Shown here in pieces: positions 4,522-18,482 of a stretch of 22,562 nucleotides of DNA; the first letter of the stretch is position 1, and every line of letters starts with the position of its first letter. Both the position numbers and the translations under genes were made by a program. Under the pieces are notes generated by a model. The model was not told the DNA's origin. It searched no databases and saw only the letters and a list, made by a program, of their open reading frames with translations. The stretch is from IMG/VR virus record IMGVR_UViG_3300037502_002084, positions 1 to 22,562 of that record; one strand, written 5' to 3'. Origin of the DNA: a virus.

Positions 4522-4527
4522 TAAGTG

Positions 4528-5382
4528 ATGACCTATTATGATATTTTAGGTGTTTCCAACACTGCAAATCCAGATGAAATCAAAAAAGCCTATAGAAAAT
4601 TGGCTAATCAACATCACCCTGACAAAGGTGGTGATGAACACAAGTTCAAAGAAATATCAGTGGCTTACGATGTATTAAGTGATTCAAATAAACGTGCCGA
4701 ATATGATCAATCTCTAATGGGCGGTGGCGGATTTAGATTCCAAAATATGGATGGTGGTTTCTCGGACATGAGTGATTTATTTGGTGGAATGTTTGGTGCT
4801 CATTTTGGTTCGGGATTTGCAGGGTTTCAACACCCTAGACAGAGAAGAAATCGAGATCTAAACATACGATGCACTATAACTTTTAAAGACAGTTACACTG
4901 GCAAAGAACTCGAAGCAACATATCCATTACCAAACGGTAAAAAAGAAACTGTAGTAATTTCTGTGCCTCCCGGAATTGAAACTGGGCAAACTATTCAATA
5001 TCGAGGATTAGGTGATAATTCATTCCCTGATTTACCAAGAGGCAATTTAAACGTAACAATAATCGTTGCATTAGATCCGAAATTCACTAGAAGGGGTGAC
5101 GACATCTGCACTGTGTTAGAACTTGATTCTATAGAAGCAATGACTGGGTGTAGTAAAGATGTTGAAACTGTAGATGGTAAAACTGTACAAATTAAAATAC
5201 GACCCGGTGTTGAACACGGTGGTGAATACAGTGCATCTGGAATGGGCTTCAAAAATGCTAGGATGCGTAGGACTGGAAATTTTGTAATCATAGTTGCTAT
5301 TCGATCTCTTGCTATCACTGACGAAATCCTAAAGAAAAAACTTCTAGAAATTAGAGATGAAATTAATCGAATTCCCAAATGA
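4528..5382 (+). CDS. dnaJ: DnaJ-like co-chaperone without zinc finger (CbpA/type II)
   Basis: A J-domain protein expected to stimulate ATP hydrolysis by host DnaK. The 284-residue protein has the J domain at about 1-65, with the HPD motif at residues 30-32. A Gly/Phe-rich linker follows (about 67-105), then two beta-rich C-terminal substrate-binding domains to the end. The CxxCxGxG zinc repeats of true DnaJ are absent, making it CbpA-like in layout. ATG 4528 is preferred over the GTG at 4525, which adds only one residue; either start leaves no room for a leader or ribosome site downstream of the predicted TSS. It overlaps the deformylase gene by 26 bases. It opens a proteostasis operon. Confidence 0.93.
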
Positions 5383-5860
5383 AATTTTAAAACAAAAAAT
5401 GCCAGACTTTGATTTTTACAGCGAAACTGATCCAGTAAAGCTAGAAAAAGAAATGATAGATATCATGCATCAAAGTAACGGTATAGGTCTAAGTGCGAAT
5501 CAAGTTGGATTTAGGGGTCGAGTGTTTGTAATGCAGCCTCAAATACTAGACAACAAAACACCTTTCGCATTATTCAATCCAATTTTATTAGAACAAAGTA
5601 AAGAGGAATCACTAAATGAAGAGGGCTGTTTAAGTTTTCCAAATCTTTTTTTAGAAGTTAAACGATCAAAAAAAATTAAAGTACAATATGTTGACAAGCA
5701 TCAAAATACCTGTATAATAGAACTTACAGACATAGATGCTCGATGTTTTCTTCATGAATTAGATCATCTAAACGGTATATGTTTTACAGATAAAATCAGC
5801 CAACTTAGATTAGCATTAGCATTAAAGAAACAGAGGAAAAAGAATGGTAGAACCAAGTGA
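5357..5860 (+). CDS. def: Peptide deformylase
   Basis: Metalloenzyme removing the formyl group from N-terminal Met of nascent proteins. The 167-residue protein has all three signature motifs: GIGLSANQ (42-49), EGCLS (89-93, Cys91 metal ligand) and HELDH (133-137, two His ligands and the catalytic Glu). All catalytic residues are intact, and the length is normal for the compact bacterial enzyme with a C-terminal helix. The basic tail ([11 protein letters not shown]) runs into the next gene. It overlaps dnaJ by 26 bases and clpA by 17, indicating translational coupling. Phage deformylases are known from cyanophages, where they favour photosystem protein turnover; no such target is seen here. 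Confidence 0.95.
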
Positions 5861-8120
5861 GAGCCTGAAGTTAGTTTTTGAAAAGGCTATTGATGTAGCA
5901 AGAAAATTGAAGCATGAGTATCTTACCATAGAACATTTATTGTTTGCTATGCTCTGCGAAGATTCATTTTTTAACAATGTACAGGGATACGGGGCGGACC
6001 CAGATTATATTAAAAAGAATTTAGAACACTATCTTAAAACCAAACTTAATGATATTATTAATGAAAATGTTGATAAGCCTAAGAAAACACAAGCCGTAGA
6101 AAGGGTTTTGAATCGTGCCTTTACTCAAGCACTGTTTAACGGTCGCCAATTGATGGAATTGACTGACGTGTTTTTAAGTATAATGAGTGAAAAGCGCAGT
6201 TGGAGTTTGTATTACATTCAACAAGCAGGCATCGATAAAGACAAATTTGCAGATTATCTCAGTAATGAAATTGGCGGAGAAGAGGAAGAAGTGCAAGACG
6301 GACAAACTGAACGTGCTCTTAGGGCATTTACAACAAATCTAAATGAGCAGGTTAAGAAAAATAAAATCGATCCTGTGATTGGACGGATAACAGAGCTTGA
6401 AAACGTGGCGTTAGCCATGGGACGTAGAAATAAAAATAATGTCATGCTTGTAGGAGATCCAGGTGTAGGTAAAACTGCTATAGCAGAAGGGCTTGCTTTT
6501 AATATTGTAAAGGGTGCTGTTCCAGATTTTCTAAAAGAATATACTGTATATAACTTAGATGTCAGTGCCATGCTTGCTGGAAGTAAGTATAGAGGTGATT
6601 TTGAAGAAAGATTTAAGTTTGTTTTGAAGGGTCTACAAACTAAAGGAAAAACTATCCTGTTCATCGACGAAGCACACATGATTAGCGGAGCAGGCAGTGC
6701 TGGTAACAGTGCCAACGATCTCAGCAATATGATGAAGCCAGCATTGAGTAAGGGCAATATTAAGGTAGTTGCAAGCACAACTTGGGAAGAATATCGAAAA
6801 TACTTTGAAAAAGATCGTGCGTTAATGCGCAGATTCCAAAGAATCACTGTTGAGGAACCCACTTCAGAAGTGTCAGTGCAAATTTTAAAAGGTCTTAAAA
6901 AATATTACGAACAACATCATAATGTTAAAATTACTGATGATGCCATACAAGCCGCGGTCAAACTCAGTGTAAAATATCAAAGCGACAAAAAGTTGCCAGA
7001 CAAAGCCATTGATTTGATCGACTGCGCATGTTCTAGATTTAATATCAAGTTGGCCGCTGACAGGATTATTAACGAGTCAGAGATTCAGTATGAACTAGCA
7101 CAAATGGTTCAAATTCCCGAAGAGCAGATAGCTGAAACAGAAAGTAATAATCTTTCTAATTTAGAAGATCAACTTAAGACTGAAGTTTACGGTCAAGACA
7201 CTGCAATTAATGAAGTTGTTGATAAAATACTTGTTGCTCGTGCAGGTCTAAAATCAGATAATAAACCTATCGGAAGTTTTGTATTCATGGGTCCTACTGG
7301 CACTGGCAAAACTGAAACTGCTAAATCACTCGCAAAGAATCTCGGAGTTAAACTTTTAAGATTTGATATGAGTGAATATCAAGAAAAGCATAGTGTAAGT
7401 AAATTAATCGGTAGTCCTCCAGGATATGTGGGATTCGAAGAAAACGCCGGATTGTTGATTACACAAATTCAAGAAAATCCCTATTGTGTTTTACTATTTG
7501 ATGAAGTAGAAAAAAGTCATCCAGATGTCAGTACAATTCTTTTACAACTTATGGATAATGGATTCATTACCGGAAGCAACGGTAAAAAAGCAGATTGTAG
7601 AAATGTAATATTAATACTGACCACAAATGCAGGCGCTCAGGAATCAGAAAAACTAAAAATTGGTTTTGGGGCTCAGGAAAAGGATTACGAAGATAAAGAA
7701 CTTAAAAAATTCTTCAGTCCAGAATTCCGTAATCGTTTAGATGCTGTAGTTTCCTTTAAGAAGCTTGGTAAAGAAACTATGGTTAAAATTGTTGGCAAAT
7801 TTATCGACGAGCTACGTGAGCAGGTCAAAGACAAAGGTGTTAAGATTAAGATCAACGACGCTGCTATCAACTTACTCATTGACAAGGGTTTCGATGCTAA
7901 GATGGGTGCAAGACCACTACAACGTACTATTGACCAAATGATCAAACGACCTTTAAGTAAGATGATATTATTTGGAGAATTGAAGGACGGTGGACAACTA
8001 AATATCGGCGTCGAAAACGATAATTTAGTGTTAACTAAAAAAATAAAGATACCAAAGATCACTGTTGAAAATGAAACTGAATCCGAACATTCAAATCAAA
8101 AGAACCAAGAAACTATTTGA
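5844..8120 (+). CDS. clpA: ClpA-like AAA+ unfoldase (Hsp100)
   Basis: Double-ring AAA+ unfoldase, 758 residues, the length of the E. coli ClpA I remember. An N-terminal Clp_N repeat domain occupies about 1-140. D1 has Walker A GDPGVGKT near residue 204 and Walker B ILFIDEAH near 270. D2 has Walker A GPTGTGKT near 482 and LLFDEVEKSH as Walker B. There is no ClpB-type middle coiled-coil domain, so it is a ClpA-type unfoldase rather than a disaggregase. A KIGFGAQ loop near 605 sits where ClpA carries its IGL/IGF ClpP-docking tripeptide. No clpP is in the window, so a host ClpP may be recruited. It overlaps neighbours at both ends. Confidence 0.93.
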   Translation: MVEPSESLKLVFEKAIDVARKLKHEYLTIEHLLFAMLCEDSFFNNVQGYGADPDYIKKNLEHYLKTKLNDIINENVDKPKKTQAVERVLNRAFTQALFNGRQLMELTDVFLSIMSEKRSWSLYYIQQAGIDKDKFADYLSNEIGGEEEEVQDGQTERALRAFTTNLNEQVKKNKIDPVIGRITELENVALAMGRRNKNNVMLVGDPGVGKTAIAEGLAFNIVKGAVPDFLKEYTVYNLDVSAMLAGSKYRGDFEERFKFVLKGLQTKGKTILFIDEAHMISGAGSAGNSANDLSNMMKPALSKGNIKVVASTTWEEYRKYFEKDRALMRRFQRITVEEPTSEVSVQILKGLKKYYEQHHNVKITDDAIQAAVKLSVKYQSDKKLPDKAIDLIDCACSRFNIKLAADRIINESEIQYELAQMVQIPEEQIAETESNNLSNLEDQLKTEVYGQDTAINEVVDKILVARAGLKSDNKPIGSFVFMGPTGTGKTETAKSLAKNLGVKLLRFDMSEYQEKHSVSKLIGSPPGYVGFEENAGLLITQIQENPYCVLLFDEVEKSHPDVSTILLQLMDNGFITGSNGKKADCRNVILILTTNAGAQESEKLKIGFGAQEKDYEDKELKKFFSPEFRNRLDAVVSFKKLGKETMVKIVGKFIDELREQVKDKGVKIKINDAAINLLIDKGFDAKMGARPLQRTIDQMIKRPLSKMILFGELKDGGQLNIGVENDNLVLTKKIKIPKITVENETESEHSNQKNQETI

Positions 8121-8770: not shown

Positions 8771-9232
8771 ATGACTGAAAAGGGACTTTCACATTACATG
8801 GAATTAGTCGAATCCGATGGGACTGACATATATCAGGGAGATGGGTTCTATTTCATGCTGGACGAAGATACTGGCGTAGAAACAGAAGTACTAACTGCCT
8901 GGGATGACGCTATCTTAGTTGAACTAGATCAAACAGCACTGGCTCTACTTCAGGACATTGGCGCAAAATTTATAGATTCCGATGATCTAAATGAAGCAAA
9001 ATATCAAGGTAGAACCGTACCTTTGGGCAAGCCTATGAAAGGTGATGTAGCCAAAAGCAAAGTTTATGTTCGCAAACCGAATGGTAAAATTGTTAAAGTA
9101 AATTTTGGCGACAAAAAACTCAGTATTAAAAAACACATTCCTGGCCGTAGAAAAAGTTTCCGTGCCAGACACAACTGTGCCAATCCGGGCCCACGTTGGA
9201 AAGCACGTTATTGGAGTTGTAGGGCTTGGTAA
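8771..9232 (+). CDS. Two-part late protein: acidic N-terminus, basic Cys/Trp C-terminal domain
   Basis: A 153-residue protein. Residues 1-75 are acidic. Residues 97-153 form a basic domain beginning KVYVRKPNGKIVKVNFGDKK and ending with an RRKSFRARHNC element, then ARYWSCRAW. This C-terminal domain is familiar from tailed phages and some large DNA viruses; I recall it as DUF5872, unverified. Its two cysteines (136 and 150) and many Arg/Trp suggest nucleic-acid or metal binding, but no function is known. A candidate T4 prohead-protease site, LNE|A (73-76), lies between the halves. It is the first gene behind the late motif at 8745, and the next gene starts one base after its stop. Confidence 0.75.
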   Translation: MTEKGLSHYMELVESDGTDIYQGDGFYFMLDEDTGVETEVLTAWDDAILVELDQTALALLQDIGAKFIDSDDLNEAKYQGRTVPLGKPMKGDVAKSKVYVRKPNGKIVKVNFGDKKLSIKKHIPGRRKSFRARHNCANPGPRWKARYWSCRAW

Positions 9233-9233
9233 T

Positions 9234-9614
9234 ATGAAAATCACAGAACTTTTTAATAATCCAAAAAAACCAATAGATCAACTATTAGGTAAAGAAAAAG
9301 ATCACGATATTGACAGTGACGAATTTAAATTTGATCTCGGTGAAGATTTAATTTATTTTATGCACAATAATGATGATTTCTACAGAAGGAACCTTTTCCC
9401 AGTACTAAAAGTATGCAAAAGAAAATTTGATCTTGGGCAAGGTTTCAGTCACCGTATGTTCAAGCCAATCATAGCTAAAGCATACGAAGCTTACAAAAAA
9501 GAATTTCCATTGAGAGAATTACAAGACAGGTTAGAAGAAGAAAAATGTGATGCTATAGCCAAAGAAATTTATAATACTGAGCTAGGTCACATGAAAGATG
9601 GAAAATACGAATAA
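9234..9614 (+). CDS. Unrecognised small acidic phage protein
   Basis: A 126-residue soluble protein with no known family. I use ATG 9234, one base after the preceding stop; earlier in-frame starts would run far into the upstream gene. The N-terminus MKITELFNNPKKPIDQLL resembles the M-x-[IL]-x-ELF openings of the proteins at 9614 and 13682. The middle is acidic (KDHDIDSDEFKFDLGEDL); the rest is helical with basic and acidic faces (FPVLKVCKRKFD, LRELQDRLEEEK). Similar small proteins precede structural genes in T4-like phages. It is joined by TAATG to the large protein that follows, suggesting a shared role. Confidence 0.7.
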   Translation: MKITELFNNPKKPIDQLLGKEKDHDIDSDEFKFDLGEDLIYFMHNNDDFYRRNLFPVLKVCKRKFDLGQGFSHRMFKPIIAKAYEAYKKEFPLRELQDRLEEEKCDAIAKEIYNTELGHMKDGKYE

Positions 9615-12600
9615 TGTTTTTAAGAGAACTTTTTTCGCCTTTGGCAAAGTTTCTACTTTATGAAGGCGGCAACTTAGTTATAGGTGATGTCGAAGCAAAC
9701 AAAATCGACACTAGTCAAAGAGCCAGTGTCGTGCCTATACTTGACAACGCACTTACAGCAATCAACAAGGCCTATGCCGCACAACACGGCAATAAAGGCA
9801 TATGGAATCCTAAATTATTGGCTAGTAAAAAATTCTTAGCAGGTTCCAGTTTTCATTTCTTTGATCGTACAGGCATATCTGATGAAATTTTTACACAGGT
9901 AAAAAGAACTGTTGGCGACATTGACACAATGATCGATAAGGACAAAAGAGATGACGTACTTACTTGGTTATCATCTCTTTCACAAGGAGCTGTAGTAGGA
10001 CCTGCACGTTTTGTTGGGTTTGATGATAAAGATCCTGTGCAAATATTAACTATGTGGCAATTCCCTGATATTGTTATCCAAAACAATGAAGGGAAACAAT
10101 TTCCAATCAATATTCAAATAGATTTGGAAATGAAAGAATATGAAAACGACGAACCAACTACTTGGAGTCAATTTAGTACTAGTAGCAGTTGGGAAGATAT
10201 CAGTGTTGGAGTCAAAGGTGTATTTCATAAATTTTTAATACAAAGTATGACTGGATTAACTGCCAAAGACTTTATGCTTAGAAAACTTGTGGGTCGAGGT
10301 AAAGCTCGTGCACCACAAGACATACCTACTAGAGATAATATGTACAGTTTTGCCATTAAATCAAAAGAAGGTGGCGGACTTAGACCCAAGTATGATCCAG
10401 TAATAGATCCGACTACTGGCAAACAAGAAATAGTAGATGGATTGCCTGTATTTGAACCACGTGCAACTACTGGCTACGAAAAAGATTTAGGTAAGATATT
10501 TCAAACTATTTTTGGCTCTAGAATGAAGCCAAAAGATTTAAATGCACAAAAAGAGAAATTTTGGAGTTTTGTTGGTGTAGCAAGTTTGATGAAACAGTAT
10601 TTGACTCCCGAAGAGCAAAACGAAGTTGTTGATAGTTTTTTAGAAAAACTTTTTGCTCCCGGTGCACAAGGTCTTTATGCTAATGATAAAGAAAAAGATC
10701 AGCAAGAAAAATCAGCTGCTGTAGATAAACTATTTGACATATTAGAAACTAATCCTCCAAAAGGATTGGATCAAATGAAACAGCAATACTATGCTGCCTA
10801 TAAATTAAGAGAAAGTATTTTTGAAGCAGAAGAAAAACCAGAAGTAGTACAAAGCAAACGTAAAAGCATAGTTCATTTAGAAAAAATGAAAGATATTGAC
10901 TTTTTAGATTTACTTGATGAATTACGTGATGAAACTAACGATAAAATAACATTGGATAATATTCCAATGACTGTTAAAATTGACGGCTTTGGGTCACGTT
11001 TTGGAAAAAGCGAAGACGGTAGGGCATTTTACGAAACCAGTAGAACTGGGCCTAAATTTGGTCCTGGTAAATTCTTAAAATATCATCTAGAAAAAGGCAC
11101 ACAGGACGAAGAAATTTTACGCAGAGCTGGATTATTTGATCAACTGCAAGATAAAATTATGGGTGTGATTGAACGTATTGATAAGCAATTAGGTAAAAAC
11201 TTTTTAACTGATGTTAAAGTACACGTGGAAGTACTATATCTCCCGTTTGCCAGCGAACAAGAAGACGGTAGATTAAAATTTGTTGGTATAAGCTACGACA
11301 AATTACCTGAAGGTGTTGATCTAGCACTAATTCCTTTATTTGCCGAAATTGGCAGCAGTGGTGCAAAACATCCTAAAAGTAATCTAATAATCAAACAATT
11401 AAAAAATATTGGCAACATGGGTGATACAATGTTCATAGATAATAATCTAACTACTGATGGTAGTATAGATGTTACTGGGCTTATACCCCCTATGGAAAAT
11501 TTAGAAACATTAAGAAACATGATTCTAAGTAACAAACGTGATGCTAAAAAAGAAGCAGCCGAAGCTTTACAACCATTAAAAGATAAACTAGCAAATTACA
11601 TCATTGAACACCCAGGTATATTAGGTAAAGATATATTAGGTAGAGACTACGAAGGTATTATTTTAAACAGCAAGCAGGGTCCTGTAAAAATTACCAGTAA
11701 GCAACAAAAAGATATAATCAAAGCTAAAAATGATGCTATTAAGGCTGCAAAGCCCCCACAAGCAGATCCTAACAAACCCAAGTCAGGCAAAACTGCTGTA
11801 GTGACTATCGGTAGTTTCATTGGTCACATTGGACATCAACAACTAGTCAATATGGTTTTAGATAAGGCACAAGCGTTAGGTGCTGATCCGTTTGTTTATA
11901 TCAGTAGTATGACCGGACCTGATGATCCAATCCCTCCAGAAGTTAAATTTGAAACTTGGCAGAGATTGTACCCAGAACAACGTGAAATATTTTCACTAAT
12001 ACAACCAGGCGGAACTCCAGTTAAAAAAATTGAAAAAGAATTAGTAACTGTAAGTAACCCACCGCCTTACGATAAAATTATAGTAATGGTAGGCGATGAT
12101 CGTTTTGAAGGTATGCGTAAATGGATGCAACACCTAAGTAAGCGTATGAAAAATCCGCAGTATCCAGGTTTTGAACATGTGGAATTTGATGTAGAAAATA
12201 CACCAAGAAATCCAGATGAAGGCGGCACTGGTATGAGCTTTACCGAATTACGTAATGTATTAAAAGACACAAGCAAAACAGCACAAGAACAATTTATTGC
12301 TTGGCGTAAAGCGTTTGATCCAATATTAGATGATAAATGGATCAAATATCTAATGACTGTGGCGAGAAAAGGAATGGGCATACAAGTTAAAAAAGATTTA
12401 AAAGAAAGTGTAATGAGTGAGATTGATTATCAAATTGGTAATAAATTGGACAGAGCCATTGCACTTTACAAAAAGAAAAGAATCAATGACGAAACTTTAG
12501 GCGACTTCACTATTAAGTTAGCCGGCAACGTGGCTAGAAAATTAGACCTAGATCAAGATGCAGTACAAGGTGTTATTAATGACTATGTGGATAACGCATT

Positions 12601-12715
12601 GTCAGATTTAGATGAAGAAGCCGCTGGTGTTGGAATTGTTACAAAACAAAATACAACTGCTGACGTTGGTCCTAGTACGTTAGGTAAAATGTTAAGAAGT
12701 TTGAAACTAGCATGA
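9614..12715 (+). CDS. Large multidomain protein: ligase-type and HIGH-type nucleotidyltransferases, possible third N-terminal NTase
   Basis: 1033 residues. Residues 1-17 (ending FLLYE, then GGN) look like a removable targeting peptide. Residues about 70-210 hold a GSS (77-79), DID (102-104) and IQID (Asp170) pattern resembling a pol-beta-type NTase signature; this is tentative. About 415-700 is a DNA/RNA-ligase-like core: KIDG with candidate adenylated Lys455, Glu539 in VHVEVLY as motif III, YEGIIL at 679-684 as motif IV, and Lys692 in VKI as motif V. About 727-900 is a cytidylyltransferase-like fold with GSFIGHIGH (HIGH at 738-741) and a late TGMSFTELR (872-880) in place of ISxTxxR. The 900-1033 tail is helical. 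Substrates are unknown; RNA or DNA end repair, or cofactor salvage, are possible. It is coupled to both neighbours. Confidence 0.8.
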   Translation: MFLRELFSPLAKFLLYEGGNLVIGDVEANKIDTSQRASVVPILDNALTAINKAYAAQHGNKGIWNPKLLASKKFLAGSSFHFFDRTGISDEIFTQVKRTVGDIDTMIDKDKRDDVLTWLSSLSQGAVVGPARFVGFDDKDPVQILTMWQFPDIVIQNNEGKQFPINIQIDLEMKEYENDEPTTWSQFSTSSSWEDISVGVKGVFHKFLIQSMTGLTAKDFMLRKLVGRGKARAPQDIPTRDNMYSFAIKSKEGGGLRPKYDPVIDPTTGKQEIVDGLPVFEPRATTGYEKDLGKIFQTIFGSRMKPKDLNAQKEKFWSFVGVASLMKQYLTPEEQNEVVDSFLEKLFAPGAQGLYANDKEKDQQEKSAAVDKLFDILETNPPKGLDQMKQQYYAAYKLRESIFEAEEKPEVVQSKRKSIVHLEKMKDIDFLDLLDELRDETNDKITLDNIPMTVKIDGFGSRFGKSEDGRAFYETSRTGPKFGPGKFLKYHLEKGTQDEEILRRAGLFDQLQDKIMGVIERIDKQLGKNFLTDVKVHVEVLYLPFASEQEDGRLKFVGISYDKLPEGVDLALIPLFAEIGSSGAKHPKSNLIIKQLKNIGNMGDTMFIDNNLTTDGSIDVTGLIPPMENLETLRNMILSNKRDAKKEAAEALQPLKDKLANYIIEHPGILGKDILGRDYEGIILNSKQGPVKITSKQQKDIIKAKNDAIKAAKPPQADPNKPKSGKTAVVTIGSFIGHIGHQQLVNMVLDKAQALGADPFVYISSMTGPDDPIPPEVKFETWQRLYPEQREIFSLIQPGGTPVKKIEKELVTVSNPPPYDKIIVMVGDDRFEGMRKWMQHLSKRMKNPQYPGFEHVEFDVENTPRNPDEGGTGMSFTELRNVLKDTSKTAQEQFIAWRKAFDPILDDKWIKYLMTVARKGMGIQVKKDLKESVMSEIDYQIGNKLDRAIALYKKKRINDETLGDFTIKLAGNVARKLDLDQDAVQGVINDYVDNALSDLDEEAAGVGIVTKQNTTADVGPSTLGKMLRSLKLA

Positions 12716-13026
12716 AGCAATACAAAATAACTTCTGATAATATTAGTAAAGATAGCCCAGATGACTGCTATCTAGATCCTAACGATCCTATACAAGAAAT
12801 AAAAGTTCTACAATATTTAGGCGGCATTAATGCCCAAGGCAGATTATATGAATATCGTCTGCAGAATCAAAAGGCAGCACAAGGCAGTAATATCAGTGTA
12901 ACAGGTAATGAAAAAGGCGAGCTTATGAAAAAACATAATATCAAACCTGGAACACCAGAATGGTTTAAGCTATGGTTCAGTTTACCATATCTTACTGGCG
13001 AAGGGCCTGTCGACAAAAGTCGATAA
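12712..13026 (+). CDS. Unrecognised 104-residue phage protein
   Basis: A soluble protein of unknown function, overlapping the preceding gene as ATGA. It has an acidic start (SPDDCYLDPNDPIQEIKVL) and a central LGGINAQGRLYEYRL segment. It ends in a GTPEWFKLWFSLPYLTGE-like aromatic segment that resembles a short structured domain in other T4-like phage proteins. Its stop codon lies inside the late promoter motif for the endolysin gene. Confidence 0.68.
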   Translation: MKQYKITSDNISKDSPDDCYLDPNDPIQEIKVLQYLGGINAQGRLYEYRLQNQKAAQGSNISVTGNEKGELMKKHNIKPGTPEWFKLWFSLPYLTGEGPVDKSR

Positions 13027-13029
13027 ATA
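13022..13029 (+). promoter_or_regulatory. T4-type late promoter motif GATAAATA
   Basis: The motif contains the TAA stop (13024-13026) of the upstream gene and lies 20 bases before the endolysin start. A GGAG ribosome site is at 13039-13042. Confidence 0.62.
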
Positions 13030-13049
13030 TTGAATAATGGAGAAAACCA

Positions 13050-13682
13050 ATGAGTTTTGAATTTGATTTCACTAGAGAAAAACTAGCAGCTTGCATCTAC
13101 AAAAACAAGAATCCCGATCCTTGGTATGATGCACTATATGAAAATTTACCAACATTTGAAATTGTAACCCCAGCACGTGTCGCTGGGTTTATTGCACAAT
13201 GTCAGCACGAAAGTTTAGACTTTACTTTATTACAAGAAAACTTGAATTACAGTGCTAAAGGTCTAAATGGAACATTTAAAAAATATTTTCCTACGACAGA
13301 TTTAGCCGAATCATATCAACGCCAACCAGAAAAGATTGCTAATAGAGTTTATGCTAGCCGAATGGGCAACGGTGATGAAAGGTCTGGCGACGGATTTAAA
13401 TTCCGTGGGCGTGGGTTGATTCAACTTACTGGGCGTGATAACTACACAGCATTTAGTCGTGATTTCTTTGGTGATGATCACGTTGTTCAAGATCCTGACT
13501 TAGTACGCACACCGCCATATGCTGTGTTAAGTGCCTGCTGGTTCTGGAACAAAAACAAATTAAATCAGTGGTGTGATGCAGGTGATGTAGTTACACTAAG
13601 CAAACGTATTAATGGCGGTACCATTGGACTCGATGATCGCATCAGCCATTGGAACCATTGCTTAGATATTTTGGAATCCTGA
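13050..13682 (+). CDS. GH19 chitinase-like endolysin
   Basis: Peptidoglycan-cleaving lysozyme-like enzyme of glycoside hydrolase family 19, 210 residues, a single catalytic domain. The catalytic acid is Glu54 in the QCQHESLDF segment; Glu110 in NGDERSGDG is the likely second acid. The family signature KFRGRGLIQLTGRDNY (117-132) is intact, and a CWFW segment and an RINGG segment (187-191) complete the fold. There is no signal peptide, so export depends on a holin; the EF-hand protein at 4091 is a candidate. There is also no separate wall-binding domain. It has its own late motif and ribosome site, and its stop overlaps the next start (TGATG). Confidence 0.92.
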   Translation: MSFEFDFTREKLAACIYKNKNPDPWYDALYENLPTFEIVTPARVAGFIAQCQHESLDFTLLQENLNYSAKGLNGTFKKYFPTTDLAESYQRQPEKIANRVYASRMGNGDERSGDGFKFRGRGLIQLTGRDNYTAFSRDFFGDDHVVQDPDLVRTPPYAVLSACWFWNKNKLNQWCDAGDVVTLSKRINGGTIGLDDRISHWNHCLDILES

Positions 13683-13918
13683 TGAGATTAAGGGAACTAT
13701 TTGAGGAAGCATCTGCTGGTGCAACCAGTGCCAGCAGTATCGCTGCGGTTCCTAATCCTAATTTAGCAATTGGTGACTCACGTGCCAGAAAATCCTATGG
13801 AAACAGTGCAAATCCCAAGCCTCCACAAACAAAACAGCGTAAAAACAGCAACGGAACAGCGAAAAATGCACTAGACATGACTACAAACATATTTGGTGGA
13901 GAAACCATCAAACGATAA
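13682..13918 (+). CDS. Small conserved phage protein, possible head internal peptide
   Basis: A 78-residue basic protein. ATG 13682 overlaps the endolysin stop by one base; an upstream in-frame ATG lies inside the endolysin gene. It opens MRLRELFEEASAGATSASS, then AVPNPNLAIGDSRARKSYG, PKPPQTK and a tail NIFGGETIKR. I recall close relatives in T4-like cyanophages, annotated only as hypothetical. The opening resembles the capsid-targeting peptide of T4 internal proteins (recalled as MKTYQEFIAEA): both have E-[LF]-[FI]-x-E-A. Packaging in the head is an inference. The stop codon is embedded in the next late motif. Confidence 0.72.
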   Translation: MRLRELFEEASAGATSASSIAAVPNPNLAIGDSRARKSYGNSANPKPPQTKQRKNSNGTAKNALDMTTNIFGGETIKR

Positions 13919-13921
13919 ATA
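13914..13921 (+). promoter_or_regulatory. T4-type late promoter motif GATAAATA
   Basis: It contains the TAA stop (13916-13918) of the preceding gene and lies 24 bases before the start at 13946. GGAG at 13934-13937 is the ribosome site. The same stop-in-promoter arrangement occurs at 13022. Confidence 0.62.
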
Positions 13922-13945
13922 TCTTATAGAAACGGAGTTTTTAAC

Positions 13946-14965
13946 ATGCACATCGAAATGGAACCAATGAGAGGCCCAGAACACGACGACGAAGGTCGTA
14001 TGGCCAAAGCGGACCTATACAAATTAGCCAATTATAGCCTTAAATTATTCAAGCAATTAGACAATAGTCAACAACTTGAAGGTTGGGTACAGGCTAAAAT
14101 TACCAAGGCCGCTGACTACATTGCCAGCGTATATCACTATATGGAATATGAGATGAAGTTTAGTGAGTATGGTCAGGCTATTGAAGACAGCGATGTGTAT
14201 ACAGAGAGCCAAAAGCGCGAGCTAAAGAACAAGCTATTTGAAGCTAAAGAAAAAATCAAAGATCTTAAGAAAGCACAAGCTGAAAAACTTAAGAAAAAAG
14301 AAAAGAAAGACATTGAAGAAGCAAGTGGATTCCGTGCAACAGATAAGAAAAAAGGCAAAGTAGAAAAGAGTGAAAAGAAACAATACTTTGTTAAGTTAGA
14401 AAAAGAAGGCAAAACCAAAGGCATGACTATGGTCGCTGACGAAGGCGAAACTGAAGGCGATATCCGTGATCGTGCCAAGAGAGACAATCAAGGTTGGAGT
14501 GTTGCCAGTGTTCGTGTTAAAGACAGCGGTAGTGGAGAAGAAGTCAGCGAAGGCAAGCGTATGAAGGACAAGAAGTCCGCAGAAGGTAACAGATTCACAC
14601 ATAATCTTAAAAAAGCTCGTGACGCAGGTAAAAAACAAGCTGACCTAGATGGTGACGGTGACATGGAAAAGGTTCAGAAAGAGAATCAAGATGCGGCGGC
14701 TGCAAGAACAGCAAGAAATAAAGTAGCTAATGATTTGGCTGCTCAAGACGCTCCTAAAGAAGGAAGAAAAACTAAAGAAAATATGATGAGTGCTCTTGGC
14801 AAGGCTGCTGGCGCGGCAGGTGCCGCAGTTGCTGGTGCTCCACAAAAGTCAGGCATTCCTGCTACAGCAAAAACTACTGTACCAGGAATGAGAGCTACAC
14901 AACAAGATTTAAAAAATGTTAATGCCGGTGCAGCTCTTGGTGAGAAAAGAAAAGGTAAAAAATAA
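13946..14965 (+). CDS. Lys-rich late protein with DxDxDG motif, probable virion/head-associated
   Basis: A 339-residue highly charged protein. Residues 20-80 are a helical domain (ADLYKLANYSLKLFKQL, then AADYIASVYHYMEYE) of a type I recall in cyanophage hypothetical proteins. A Lys/Glu coiled helix (90-125) follows, then a small beta-like domain (144-194) and an RFTHNLKKARDAGKKQ element. A DLDGDGD loop at 234-239, with Asp233, 235, 237 and 239, has the pattern of calcium-binding dockerin/EF loops. The tail is Ala/Gly-rich (284-300) and basic. Candidate T4 prohead-protease sites are LFE99|A and IEE125|A. It has its own late motif and ribosome site and heads a three-gene unit. Function unknown. 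Confidence 0.72.
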   Translation: MHIEMEPMRGPEHDDEGRMAKADLYKLANYSLKLFKQLDNSQQLEGWVQAKITKAADYIASVYHYMEYEMKFSEYGQAIEDSDVYTESQKRELKNKLFEAKEKIKDLKKAQAEKLKKKEKKDIEEASGFRATDKKKGKVEKSEKKQYFVKLEKEGKTKGMTMVADEGETEGDIRDRAKRDNQGWSVASVRVKDSGSGEEVSEGKRMKDKKSAEGNRFTHNLKKARDAGKKQADLDGDGDMEKVQKENQDAAAARTARNKVANDLAAQDAPKEGRKTKENMMSALGKAAGAAGAAVAGAPQKSGIPATAKTTVPGMRATQQDLKNVNAGAALGEKRKGKK

Positions 14966-14967
14966 TC

Positions 14968-16362
14968 ATGGATGTCAAACAAGTACTTGCGCTAATTGAT
15001 TCTGCAGAACAGAAAAAAGAAACGTTGACTGAAGGTAAAAACATGGCCAAAGACATGGTCATGCAACATTATACCAAAAAAGAAATTAGTACACCTGTTA
15101 GAAAACCAGTTAGCAAACTCAACGAGTATTTTAAAGTAGTAGACAACGAAATGCTAAACGTAATCAAAGAAGAGCGTGAAGCAAAACGTGTTGAAGTTAA
15201 ATCCATTGTTAATCGTGTTTTAGAACGTTTAGATGAAGGCAAAAAAGTAGAAGCACCTAAGCCACGTAACTTTGTTGCTAAAAATGCTAAGACTGCTGGT
15301 GCTGGCGCACACAAAGATAAAAAGAAAGCTGAAAAACAAGGTGACTTAAAACATAAAAAAGAAAAAGTACCTATGGATGAAAACGAACAGCTAAGTGAAA
15401 AAGCTGTTAGCAAAGCACAACAGAAATTTATGGGCATGGTACATGCCGCCAAGAAAGGTGAAAAGCCGGCCAGCAAGGAAGTTGCTACGGCTGCTAAAGG
15501 AATGAGTGCTAAGGCAGCTAAGGATTATGCTAGTACCAAGCACAAAGGTCTTCCAAATAAAAAAGTAGACGAAGAGAAGAAAAAAGGTACACACGGAAAA
15601 GCCTGCTGGGACGGATATCGTAGAGTAGGACAAAACGATTGTGTTAAAGTAAGTGAAGCTATCGAAGTCGGTTCACCAGTTCGTGTTTACAGCAACGTAT
15701 TAAAAAAATCAGTGTTAGGCACTGTAGTTGCTATTAACGAAAACAAAGTATACATAAACTATAACAACACAAAAATTGTTATGGGTCATCCAATTAGTAA
15801 AATTGAATTAAACGAAGCGGCAGCAGCAACGGCAGCTAAGGTTGCTGGCCAGGCAGCACCAGGTATGTTAGCAAAAGCAGCAAGATTTATCCCAGGTGTC
15901 GGTTTAGTAGCAGGTGGGTATGACGCTTACAAACGTGCTCAAGCAGGTGACTATACTGGTGCGGCGCTTAGTGCTGGTGCAGGTCTTGCAGGTCTAGTTC
16001 CAGGCTTAGGTACTACCGTAGCAACTGGTTTAATTGGGGCGCAAATGGGTCGTGATTACGCTAAAACAGGCAGTGTACTTCCAGACTATGATGAAATGGG
16101 TAAGGCTGCGCAAAAAGGTCAAGCCCCAACACCAACACCAACACCACAACCAAATAGGAAAACTGGTGCTATAATAAATGGTTCACCCGAATCGATCAAA
16201 ATAATGCAGAAAAAGTTATCTGATGCTGGTGCAAAGAACACCGATGGAACACCTTTAGTAGCAGATGGTAAAATAGGTTCAAACACTCAGGCAGCTATGA
16301 AACAGTTCCCTGATATTGCTAAAACATACAATTATGGACGACCTGGCACAGTAGGTGCATAA
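14968..16362 (+). CDS. Late protein with DUF3008-like segment, glycine-rich membrane region and peptidoglycan-binding domain
   Basis: 464 residues. The opening MDVKQVLALIDSAEQ resembles that of the next gene and is followed by LTE22|G. Residues 40-140 are charged helix and basic linker. Residues 144-203 (AVSKAQQKFMGMVHAAKKG, later TKHKGLPNK) match my memory of DUF3008. KACWDGYRRVGQNDC (211-225) follows, then a small beta domain (228-282). Residues 284-362 are an Ala/Gly zipper with hydrophobic stretches near 308-318 and 333-360. After a TP-repeat linker (387-393), 405-451 reads as a PG_binding_1-like repeat (SPESIKIMQKKLSDAG with DGKIGSNTQAAM). Candidate processing sites are LTE22|G, LDE90|G and LNE283|A. 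Architecture suggests an ejected or envelope-acting virion protein; this is inference. Confidence 0.75.
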   Translation: MDVKQVLALIDSAEQKKETLTEGKNMAKDMVMQHYTKKEISTPVRKPVSKLNEYFKVVDNEMLNVIKEEREAKRVEVKSIVNRVLERLDEGKKVEAPKPRNFVAKNAKTAGAGAHKDKKKAEKQGDLKHKKEKVPMDENEQLSEKAVSKAQQKFMGMVHAAKKGEKPASKEVATAAKGMSAKAAKDYASTKHKGLPNKKVDEEKKKGTHGKACWDGYRRVGQNDCVKVSEAIEVGSPVRVYSNVLKKSVLGTVVAINENKVYINYNNTKIVMGHPISKIELNEAAAATAAKVAGQAAPGMLAKAARFIPGVGLVAGGYDAYKRAQAGDYTGAALSAGAGLAGLVPGLGTTVATGLIGAQMGRDYAKTGSVLPDYDEMGKAAQKGQAPTPTPTPQPNRKTGAIINGSPESIKIMQKKLSDAGAKNTDGTPLVADGKIGSNTQAAMKQFPDIAKTYNYGRPGTVGA

Positions 16363-16382
16363 AAAATTCAGAGGAACAAGAA

Positions 16383-18122
16383 ATGGATATTAGATCACTA
16401 ATTTCAAAATTAGATAGTATACAAGCACTTAACGAAGCATTAACTTTAGATCAAGTTACTGCCGCAGTTGGTCAAGAAAAAAGCGAACAAAAACGTGCAA
16501 AAATACTTATGGGCTTGGCTCAAAAAGAAAATTTGCCAGGTTTATATGATCCTGTAAGTGGATATTTTGTCAGTGCAACACCTGATAAAAACTACATGAC
16601 ACAACAGGAAACTCCAAGGATCAGTGCCACAGCTAGTAAAAGTTCAGATCAAAAGTTAGCACAGTTGGGTCTAGTTCCTCAAAATGCAAGTACATCAACA
16701 TTTTTAGGTCGCATGTTTAGAGGTGATCAAAAAGGTCAATACGATCTTGATACCAAACAAACTTCTAGAGATGCAAGATTGCAACAGTTAATTGCAGACT
16801 TAGTAGGCAAAGCTGGTCCATTATTAGACAAACTAGAAAAGAAATATGCTGCACCAACAACTGAAGGTATAAGGTATACCAGTGGTATTGCTAGAGCACT
16901 AGCAGAAAGTATTGGCTACGATTTATTTGAAGCTGAAGCACCTGCTAGTAGTAGCTATACAGGGCAAGCGGCTACACCAGCTGCACCTGCTGAAGAAGAT
17001 CCAGATCTAAAAGCACTAGAAGCCATTATGATGCAGTTAAGTGATATTTCTGATCCTAAAGTAGAACCAATTAAAGATCGTTATGCGGCATTATTACAGA
17101 TGATGGATACTGCTAAAAAGGCAGCAGCCGATAAAGAAAAACAAGCCGCTGACACTAAGAACGCACAAGCAGAAGCAGATGCACTTACAAGAGAAGGTCT
17201 AAAGAAAAAAATCGCAAGATTAAAAGAATTATTAGACAAACAAAAAGCTAAAAAAGGTGGTATAACACCTGGACAGAATGCTAGAGATGATTTATTAGCA
17301 AGACAGGGATCCACTACAGACCCATTAGCTAGAGATGATGCAACTAAAAATGCACTCCCTAAGGGAATGACTATAGAAAATTTAAGCGAAAGTGAAATCA
17401 TTGCGAGACTACGTAAGCAGTTAGAGGATATTGAAAATCGTATTGATGAAGGCGATGACATAGATGAAAACGTGTTCCAGGCTATCGGTCAAGGAGTTAA
17501 GGGCGCAGTTAACGTTGGTAGAAACTTTATTGGCGGTATAGGCGGTAGAGCAGCCACAGGCACAGTTAGAAGTGCTGACGAACTAGCTGCGGCACAAAAA
17601 GCTACCAACGCCGCAAGAAAGGCTGCTGGTAAGAAACCATTAACCAAAGCACAACAAGCTCAACAAGCTAAAGCAGGTATTGGTACTGTTAACCCAGCAA
17701 GCAAAGCAGCCAGAGTAGCTAATACAGCTGGACAAGTAGTTAGAGCTAATCCAGTTAGAACAGCATTGGCAACTGCTGCCGGTGGCGCAGCCATAGGTTA
17801 TGGATTAAACAAAGACGATCCAAAACAAGACGTTACTCCAGTACCAACTCCAGGACCAGTAGGACCCGTACCAGCACCTGATCCAACTCCAGCACCAGCA
17901 CCAGCACCTGATCCAACTCCAGCACCAGCAACTGATCCGACTCCAGCAACACCGGTTGATGATCCAGATATGAAAGAGATTGGGCAATTAATGAGTGATA
18001 TTGGTCAATACACAAATCCTCAAGAAGCACCTGCTGATGTAGTTGACATGGCTACTAAAGAATTGGATGCTGCGAGAAAGGCATTGAAAGAGCTAGGACT
18101 AGATGCCCCTGCAGAAGAATAA
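16383..18122 (+). CDS. Ala/Gly/Pro-rich late protein with repeated helical module, probable processed head protein
   Basis: 579 residues, low complexity. The opening MDIRSLISKLDSIQALNE|A parallels the neighbour upstream and ends in a candidate prohead-protease site (E18|A19). Further sites are LFE183|A, LSE336|S and IDE356|G. Residues 206-250 (DPDLKALEAIMMQLSDI...) reappear in weaker form at 527-572 (DPDMKEIGQLMSDIGQY...). Coiled-coil helices span 232-290 and 338-356. An Ala/Gly-rich region (365-475) has glycine-zipper segments. Residues 485-525 are a Pro/Ala/Thr linker with DPTPAP repeats. It has no enzyme motif. It follows the previous gene by 20 bases with an AGAGGA ribosome site and is ended by a strong terminator. 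Confidence 0.72.
   Translation: MDIRSLISKLDSIQALNEALTLDQVTAAVGQEKSEQKRAKILMGLAQKENLPGLYDPVSGYFVSATPDKNYMTQQETPRISATASKSSDQKLAQLGLVPQNASTSTFLGRMFRGDQKGQYDLDTKQTSRDARLQQLIADLVGKAGPLLDKLEKKYAAPTTEGIRYTSGIARALAESIGYDLFEAEAPASSSYTGQAATPAAPAEEDPDLKALEAIMMQLSDISDPKVEPIKDRYAALLQMMDTAKKAAADKEKQAADTKNAQAEADALTREGLKKKIARLKELLDKQKAKKGGITPGQNARDDLLARQGSTTDPLARDDATKNALPKGMTIENLSESEIIARLRKQLEDIENRIDEGDDIDENVFQAIGQGVKGAVNVGRNFIGGIGGRAATGTVRSADELAAAQKATNAARKAAGKKPLTKAQQAQQAKAGIGTVNPASKAARVANTAGQVVRANPVRTALATAAGGAAIGYGLNKDDPKQDVTPVPTPGPVGPVPAPDPTPAPAPAPDPTPAPATDPTPATPVDDPDMKEIGQLMSDIGQYTNPQEAPADVVDMATKELDAARKALKELGLDAPAEE
17880..17957 (+). repeat. Short tandem repeat encoding DPTPAP units
   Basis: Three in-frame copies of 30, 24 and 24 bases start at 17880, 17910 and 17934. 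Each begins GATCC(A/G)ACTCCAGCA and encodes DPTPA plus a variable tail. Unit length differs by two residues between copies, consistent with slippage or unequal recombination in a flexible linker. Confidence 0.85.
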
Positions 18123-18137
18123 AATCTTTATTCAAAT

Positions 18138-18167
18138 AAAACGGCAAATTTAATTTGCCGTTTTTTT
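18138..18167 (+). terminator. Strong intrinsic terminator after the late block
   Basis: ACGGCAAAT (18141-18149) pairs perfectly with ATTTGCCGT (18153-18161) around TTA. Flanking AAA/TTT extends the stem, and seven T residues run from 18161 to 18167. It separates the late unit from the early promoter that follows. Confidence 0.93.
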
Positions 18168-18175
18168 ACCTTTGC

Positions 18176-18204
18176 TTGACTTAGAAATATAAGTAATGTA
18201 CAAT
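18176..18204 (+). promoter_or_regulatory. Sigma70 promoter of the dsbA-gp43 unit
   Basis: TTGACT (18176-18181) and TACAAT (18199-18204) are spaced 17 bases apart, each 5/6 to consensus. The start is predicted near 18211. A GGAG ribosome site (18217-18220) and ATG at 18228 follow. Confidence 0.8.
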
Positions 18205-18227
18205 AAGGCTTATTTAGGAGTAACAAC

Positions 18228-18482
18228 ATGTCAAGAATGTACGGACCAGAAGAAAAGGCTAAATTGGAACGTTTGATTAATGAAGGCTCAACTGTATTAC
18301 GTGAAGTTGAAGATTTACAAGAAGGCTTAAAAGAAACTGTTAAGGCCGTTGCAGAAGAACTTAATATTAAACCCAGCGTTATTCAACGTGCTATCAAAAT
18401 AGCACACAAGGGTGACTGGAGTGCGTACAATGAAGATTGGGCTGAAATTGAAAGCATTTTAGAAGTTACCAAAAAGATTTAA
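18228..18482 (+). CDS. dsbA: DsbA-like double-stranded DNA-binding protein
   Basis: An 84-residue acidic/basic helical protein. In T4, DsbA (89 residues) binds double-stranded DNA and assists late transcription. The C-terminal half here (AEELNIKPSVIQRAIKIAHK, then ...YNEDWAEIESILE) aligns in pattern with T4 DsbA (KDELGVDGKMFNRLLALYHK, then an acidic helix), including the central helix and His-Lys. A helical N-terminal half (LERLINEGSTVLREVEDLQE) matches the T4 layout. It is first behind a clear sigma70 promoter with a GGAG site. Identification is by remembered similarity of a short protein, so moderately sure. Confidence 0.72.
   Translation: MSRMYGPEEKAKLERLINEGSTVLREVEDLQEGLKETVKAVAEELNIKPSVIQRAIKIAHKGDWSAYNEDWAEIESILEVTKKI

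Follow-up and report, generated by a model that had tools for sequence, protein, structure and literature searches.

The 22,562-nucleotide stretch of viral DNA analysed here (IMG/VR record IMGVR_UViG_3300037502_002084; hereafter the window) carries an open reading frame (ORF) at 9614-12715 whose product joins a Pol-beta-type nucleotidyltransferase (NTase), a KxDG ligase-type domain and a HIGH nucleotidylyltransferase, in that order. This protein is considered as a candidate enzyme polyprotein that would be packaged in the phage head and cut there by a prohead protease. Its features are as follows, a bar marking a predicted cut:

9614..12715, + strand: three-domain precursor, ATG start, 1033 aa, 115.8 kDa
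9614..9664, + strand: N-terminal propeptide resembling a capsid-targeting sequence, residues 1-17 (MFLRELFSPLAKFLLYE), ending L-Y-E|GGN
9665..10813, + strand: domain 1, Pol-beta-type NTase (fold supported, not proven), residues 18-400, with GSS 77, DID 102/104 and D170/E172
10814..10837, + strand: linker 1 with the predicted prohead-protease site IFE404|A (E404 codon 10823-10825); LRE400|S lies just before
10838..11743, + strand: domain 2, covalent nucleotidyltransferase (ligase-type), residues 409-710, with K455xDG, E539, E680G and K692
11774..12388, + strand: domain 3, HIGH-superfamily nucleotidylyltransferase, residues 721-925
12389..12712, + strand: C-terminal helical extension with a possible further site, LKE931|S

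The protein recurs in two viral contigs, with identities of 100% (best segment) and 83%; in the 83% homolog (L002), synonymous codon differences exceed nonsynonymous ones in every region. The nearest relatives of the window's DNA polymerase are those of the jumbo phages Phosso and Atu_ph07. Scanning with domain 1 yielded 80 viral loci, the majority of which have all three domains, in unchanged order, within one chain of 913-2135 residues. At the remaining loci the domains are divided over two or three genes, or domain 1 stands alone on the available stretch. Isolates have the parts apart: Xanthomonas X1 and Stenotrophomonas Yut2 carry separate genes in a row for the NTase, a further protein, the ligase and the HIGH enzyme, and Vibrio phiKT1024 and Campylobacter CP21 possess an NTase gene with a KxDG-HIGH fusion gene elsewhere in the genome. 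Since the separate genes co-occur in isolates, the three activities tend to travel together, fused or unfused. An exception is contig L055, with neighbours as in the window, which has domain 1 only (5986-7119, 377 aa, MRVRELYE|GGN); domains 2 and 3 of the cassette were not found on its 54.6 kb.

Several effector domains thus occur in one phage polypeptide, three in the window protein and more in some longer homologs. These additions comprise a second Pol-beta NTase, Amidoligase_2 and DUF6934 in L060 (5998-12405), lysozyme and LysM in L016 (6001-10809), and GP88 in L036 (5962-10671). A weak M78-like peptidase domain stands at the front of another longer homolog, L038 (5593-8850).

Domain assignments and catalytic residues

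All motifs named in the original prediction were located at the expected residues, and its two clear and possibly three nucleotidyltransferase folds now correspond to three domains supported by conserved motifs and structure models. Among 41 three-domain homologs, invariant or nearly invariant columns include G77, S78, D102, D104, D170, E172 and K201 in domain 1; K455, D457, G458, E539, E680, G681 and K692 in domain 2; H738, G740, H741, D829, S875 and R880 in domain 3; and E17, G18, G19, N20 and E404 at the predicted cleavage sites. Core catalytic residues are also kept in wider homolog sets, and all three domains look active as judged from their sequences. Because the homologs share ancestry, motif and site counts show conservation rather than independent events. 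The full-length structure model has a mean predicted local distance difference test score (pLDDT) of 85, and the models agree with the domain assignments clearly for the HIGH and ligase domains and weakly for domain 1. A search of a viral structure library with the whole architecture returned no good alignment (best template modelling score, TM-score, by query length 0.31).

Domain 1 contains GSS (77-79), GDIDTMID (D102, D104) and IQIDLE (D170, E172), and matches phrog_19290 (3.3e-18). Its G77, S78, D102, D104 and D170 are invariant in 46 sequences, giving the superfamily motif G-S...D-x-D...third carboxylate. Modelled alone, the domain reaches a pLDDT of 95, and its first eight PDB fold matches are all superfamily members, with Pol lambda, FAM46A, TdT and alarmone synthetase among the best. 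The Pol-beta fold is therefore supported by modelling, not proven. A PDB sequence search with domain 1 gave nothing meaningful, and a Pfam-A search of the window protein at E up to 10 gave no NTase match, RlaP included. Cellular homologs of domain 1 amount to two genome matches, both in metagenome-assembled genomes (MAGs; L111 and L112). In L111, the Anaerolineae MAG contig CAKZJX010000007.1, the NTase and ligase genes share starts and spacing with the viral contigs L085 and L086; the gene sets agree as well, and L111 is probably a contig of phage origin that was placed in a bacterial MAG.

Domain 2 presents KIDG (K455), E539, YEGIIL (E680-G681) and VKI (K692), that is, KxDG, E, EG and K in ligase order, in columns invariant in 40 sequences. 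It matches phrog_12709 (1.7e-5), and its model matches the archaeal ATP-dependent RNA ligase 5d1o (prob 1.00, E 6.4e-3), followed by fungal tRNA ligase and human Lig1 (DNA ligase I); a PDB sequence search with this domain returned nothing meaningful. DUF6267 was rejected as a member of the same family, since its likeness to the window ligase is confined to the KxDG region (hhalign P 5.7e-4, prob 29).

Domain 3 carries GSFIGHIGH (H738, H741) and TGMSFTELR (S875...R880). It matches phrog_3041 (4.5e-16) and the profiles of RibF (1.5e-5) and nicotinate mononucleotide (NaMN) adenylyltransferase (4e-4), and its fold matches are FAD synthetase, phosphopantetheine adenylyltransferase (PPAT) and the NaMN adenylyltransferase NadD. 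Both the fold and the motifs G-x-F..HxGH, GxDR and SxTxxR place it in the HIGH superfamily.

Predicted prohead-protease sites

The T4 prohead protease gp21 cleaves after L/I-x-E (PMC9026906), and the precursor's first 17 residues end in such a sequence before a small residue, LYE17|GGN. This prefix is variable in both length and sequence among homologs; its end, E|G(G/S)N, is present in 39/39 fused homologs that include the prefix and in 34/34 further ones. The separate NTase of CP21 has a prefix too, starting MKLSELILILE|GGN. The prefix-free relatives in X1, Yut2 and phiKT1024 start exactly with MGGN, and E|GGN persists behind another leading domain in L038 (PISE|GGN), L032 (KLME|GGN) and L046 (KITE|GGN). 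Residues 1-18 are among the few segments modelled with pLDDT below 50. The removable N-terminal peptide with a gp21-type end that had been proposed from this DNA is thus supported as targeting-like.

A second site, IFE404|AEE, had been noted between the N-terminal region and the ligase domain, and it too is conserved. Glu occupies this column in 38/41 fused homologs; all 38 have Leu (19), Ile (13) or Val (6) at P3, and 33 have Ala at P1'. Among 45 further non-redundant fused proteins, linker 1 contains a strict match in 35 and a relaxed one in the other 10 (45/45). The density of [LI]xE[AGS] is 3.05 per 100 residues in linker 1 versus 0.054 per 100 (19 in 35,012) across the cores of the three domains. 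The linker itself varies in length by up to ~40 residues, the gp21-type site being its one conserved element, and residues 398-409 have a pLDDT below 50. Furthermore, in split ligase genes with a targeting-like N-terminus, the Glu lies 6-7 residues before a conserved Arg, with a mode of 7, as in the fused proteins.

Linker 2, between the ligase and HIGH domains, has no gp21-type site in any of the 41 fused homologs or the 45 further fused proteins, and cleavage there was rejected. The idea that cutting yields separate enzymes is consequently supported for the junction of domains 1 and 2 and not for that of domains 2 and 3: with a site only at the former, the expected products are an NTase and a ligase-HIGH enzyme, not three enzymes. 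The match LPE566|GVD, raised earlier as a caveat, is real; its position in a confidently modelled part of the ligase domain and its presence in few homologs make use as a cut site very unlikely. Towards the C-terminus, a relaxed LxE-type site is found in the 60 residues starting at residue 915 in 24/41 homologs at no conserved position, and some homologs may be cut after the HIGH domain too.

Proposed packaging and processing, and competing explanations

Peptidase_S77, the gp21 family, was detected in 9 of 14 related contigs of at least 140 kb that were searched and in all seven isolate genomes tested (X1, Yut2, phiKT1024, CP21, S-SM2, S-CREM2 and Atu_ph07), and the major capsid protein gp23 of five related contigs contains L-[AM]-E|(S/T/N)ATxGAT. 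Targeting-like peptides also begin the split HIGH genes, as in MGQLKSFKTFTE|S, MLLSELFE|AS and, in S-SM2, MKSFFQFLSE|A. Among non-cassette ORFs of the loci, there are 75 cases of [LI]xE[AGS] at residues 6-25, where 23 are expected (maximum 36 among 200 shuffles), and the window's N-terminal matches all lie within 8771-18482. In addition, CsCl-purified virions yielded 3 peptides (11.2% coverage) of the S-CREM2 cytidylyltransferase gp154, a member of the domain 3 family (E 1.6e-34) that starts MKNFSSFLTE|ADEK, and the authors of that study remark that cytidyltransferases are often seen in cyanophage virions (PMC10665884).

Other genes show similar features. A 78-aa protein of the window (13682-13918, + strand) starts with the targeting-like MRLRELFEE|ASAGATSASS, and the stretch after its site resembles the ATAGATAAS that follows the gp23 cut in related contigs. 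Two further + strand genes, 14968-16362 and 16383-18122, encode candidate packaged proteins; the first has LTE|G at residue 22, the second LNE|A at residue 18, and internal sites such as LFE183|A are also present. Around the NTase of L043 (5099-12249), many gene products start with a short peptide that has an x-x-E site, as if the whole operon were head-targeted. Two genes from the virion cytidylyltransferase, S-CREM2 gp156 (L104 5812-6525) encodes a Pol-beta-type NTase-like protein (GGNANYNYTPYSDIDLH), likewise listed in the virion proteome (PMC10665884).

Altogether, we favour a head-targeted enzyme polyprotein of a large T4-type phage that is packaged, cut after E17 and E404, and ejected with the DNA, and assign this reading a probability of about 0.55. 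The 17-residue peptide would act as a capsid targeting sequence that brings the precursor into the prohead core, where a gp21-type protease would cut at the two sites to give a 43-kDa Pol-beta-type NTase with the N-terminus GGN and a 59-70-kDa ligase-HIGH enzyme. Both products would remain in the mature head and be ejected with the DNA, like T4 Alt and the internal proteins.

Several observations weigh against this reading. The window is a 22.6-kb fragment without head genes, and five contigs longer than 140 kb showed no match to S77, the protease being either divergent or not on the contig. The virion detection concerns a homolog of domain 3, not the window protein or any fused homolog, and the S-CREM2 authors allow for carry-over into virion preparations (PMC10665884). 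The fold matches of domain 1 are weak, with E 7e-3 or worse and low TM-scores. Furthermore, the split ligases of L035 and L077 have no targeting peptide, and the untagged X1 and Yut2 homologs adjoin replication (helicase) genes, which indicates that the enzymes can act without packaging.

The last point, together with the missing prefix in phiKT1024, would fit an enzyme that is not packaged at all and works in the infected cell once expressed in the ordinary way, the prefix and the linker Glu being structural. No T4-type late promoter (TATAAATA) occurs within the window, which suits the same explanation and leaves the "late" label of the original prediction unconfirmed. A structural role sits poorly with a prefix that is modelled at low confidence and varies apart from E|GGN, with targeting-like N-termini that recur on split ligase genes, split HIGH genes and neighbouring ORFs, and with the homologous cyanophage HIGH protein in virions (PMC10665884); we consider it improbable. 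Alternatively, the protein may be packaged and lose its N-terminal peptide with the linker left uncut, so that a single three-domain enzyme is injected. Most homologs do keep the domains together as a single chain of constant order, and T4 internal proteins are mostly trimmed at their ends only (PMC5694885). This outcome nevertheless appears unlikely, given that the gp21-type site is the lone conserved element of a variable linker and that split homologs break there too.

What the delivered enzymes would do is the least certain step of the favoured reading. In phage RNA repair, RNA ligases are known to be joined by Pol-beta NTases (PMC7824862), so RNA end repair is the first hypothesis: in the new host, broken nucleic-acid ends, most plausibly of RNA cut by host defence nucleases, might be restored and sealed, with the HIGH domain adding a further nucleotidylation of a phosphorylated end or a small molecule. 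Nucleic-acid end repair is the likeliest role by analogy, unproven and put forward tentatively. The choice of RNA as substrate draws solely on fold and partner resemblance, and other HIGH enzymes make NAD, FAD or CoA precursors; both points count against it. A serious rival, quite possible in our view, accepts packaging and cutting as proposed and assigns the chemistry to nucleotide signals or cofactors, such as the rebuilding of NAD. NaMN adenylyltransferase and FAD synthetase are among the enzymes that the HIGH domain resembles, and the S-CREM2 authors read their homolog as a relative of nicotinamide mononucleotide adenylyltransferase able to affect NAD (PMC10665884); the constant company of a Pol-beta-type NTase and of a ligase-type domain with an RNA ligase as its top fold match speaks for nucleic-acid ends instead.

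Two further groups of genes were recorded. A recurrent partner gene lies near split cassettes (L077 5417-6907; L008 4435-5754; L004 7008-8012; L111 7039-8355). The copies in L077 and S-SM2 fall into phrog_3060; these and the copies of X1 and Yut2 contain D...S-x-K, which recalls the pattern of PD-(D/E)XK nucleases. All the copies may be homologous. In the window, 4525-8120 (+ strand) holds consecutive DnaJ-like, peptide deformylase-like and Clp-type ATPase genes.

Relation to known systems and biological meaning

The closest precedent for delivery is provided by T4 Alt and the internal proteins IPI-III, which are capsid-targeted, processed by gp21 and injected. They share with the window protein a short N-terminal peptide ending in L/I-x-E before a small residue; relatives of the window phage have a T4-type head module, and Alt is likewise an enzyme destined for a new host. 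Alt is also cut near its C-terminus, being trimmed by gp21 at both ends (PMC5694885). In T4, however, gp21 removes terminal peptides, whereas here a conserved site parts two enzyme parts of one chain, and the domains and chemistry differ. Polyvalent proteins similarly combine several domains in one phage protein and are thought to enter the cell along with the DNA, and the homologs described here have variable extra domains (lysozyme, amidoligase, GP88, second NTase). For many of them, release by an embedded metallopeptidase has been proposed (Iyer et al., 2017, PMC5512222); in contrast, no peptidase match was found in the window protein, which instead has predicted sites for a prohead protease acting in trans.

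Phage RNA repair systems that pair an RNA ligase with RlaP (PMC7824862) also couple a ligase-type enzyme to a Pol-beta-type NTase. Unlike them, the window protein has no RlaP or RNA-ligase Pfam match and possesses an added HIGH domain and predicted head targeting. The cyanophage cytidyltransferases (T4-GC 190, phrog_395/3041) and DUF6267-HIGH proteins (phrog_455) contain a homologous HIGH domain, in some cases with a KxDG domain fused upstream, and show a targeting-like N-terminus and the virion detection in S-CREM2; they differ in having no fused homologous N-terminal NTase.

A literature search, mostly without subscription papers, found no account of packaged enzymes freed by interdomain prohead-protease sites. 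We give even odds to head-packaged enzyme polyproteins forming a widespread class, in which conserved prohead-protease sites connect the parts and capsid maturation sets the enzymes free: two in the window protein, and perhaps more in homologs with lysozyme, amidoligase or a second NTase. The conserved sites make the proposal directly testable by mass spectrometry in any cultured relative, and three nucleotidyl-transfer chemistries are linked in one conserved phage system. Processing of enzyme polyproteins is a strategy better known from animal viruses. If the proposal is true, it would account for the delivery of several enzymes by large phages at DNA entry, widen the role of the prohead protease beyond the trimming of head proteins to include enzyme polyproteins, and make the phage head a chamber for polyprotein processing and delivery.

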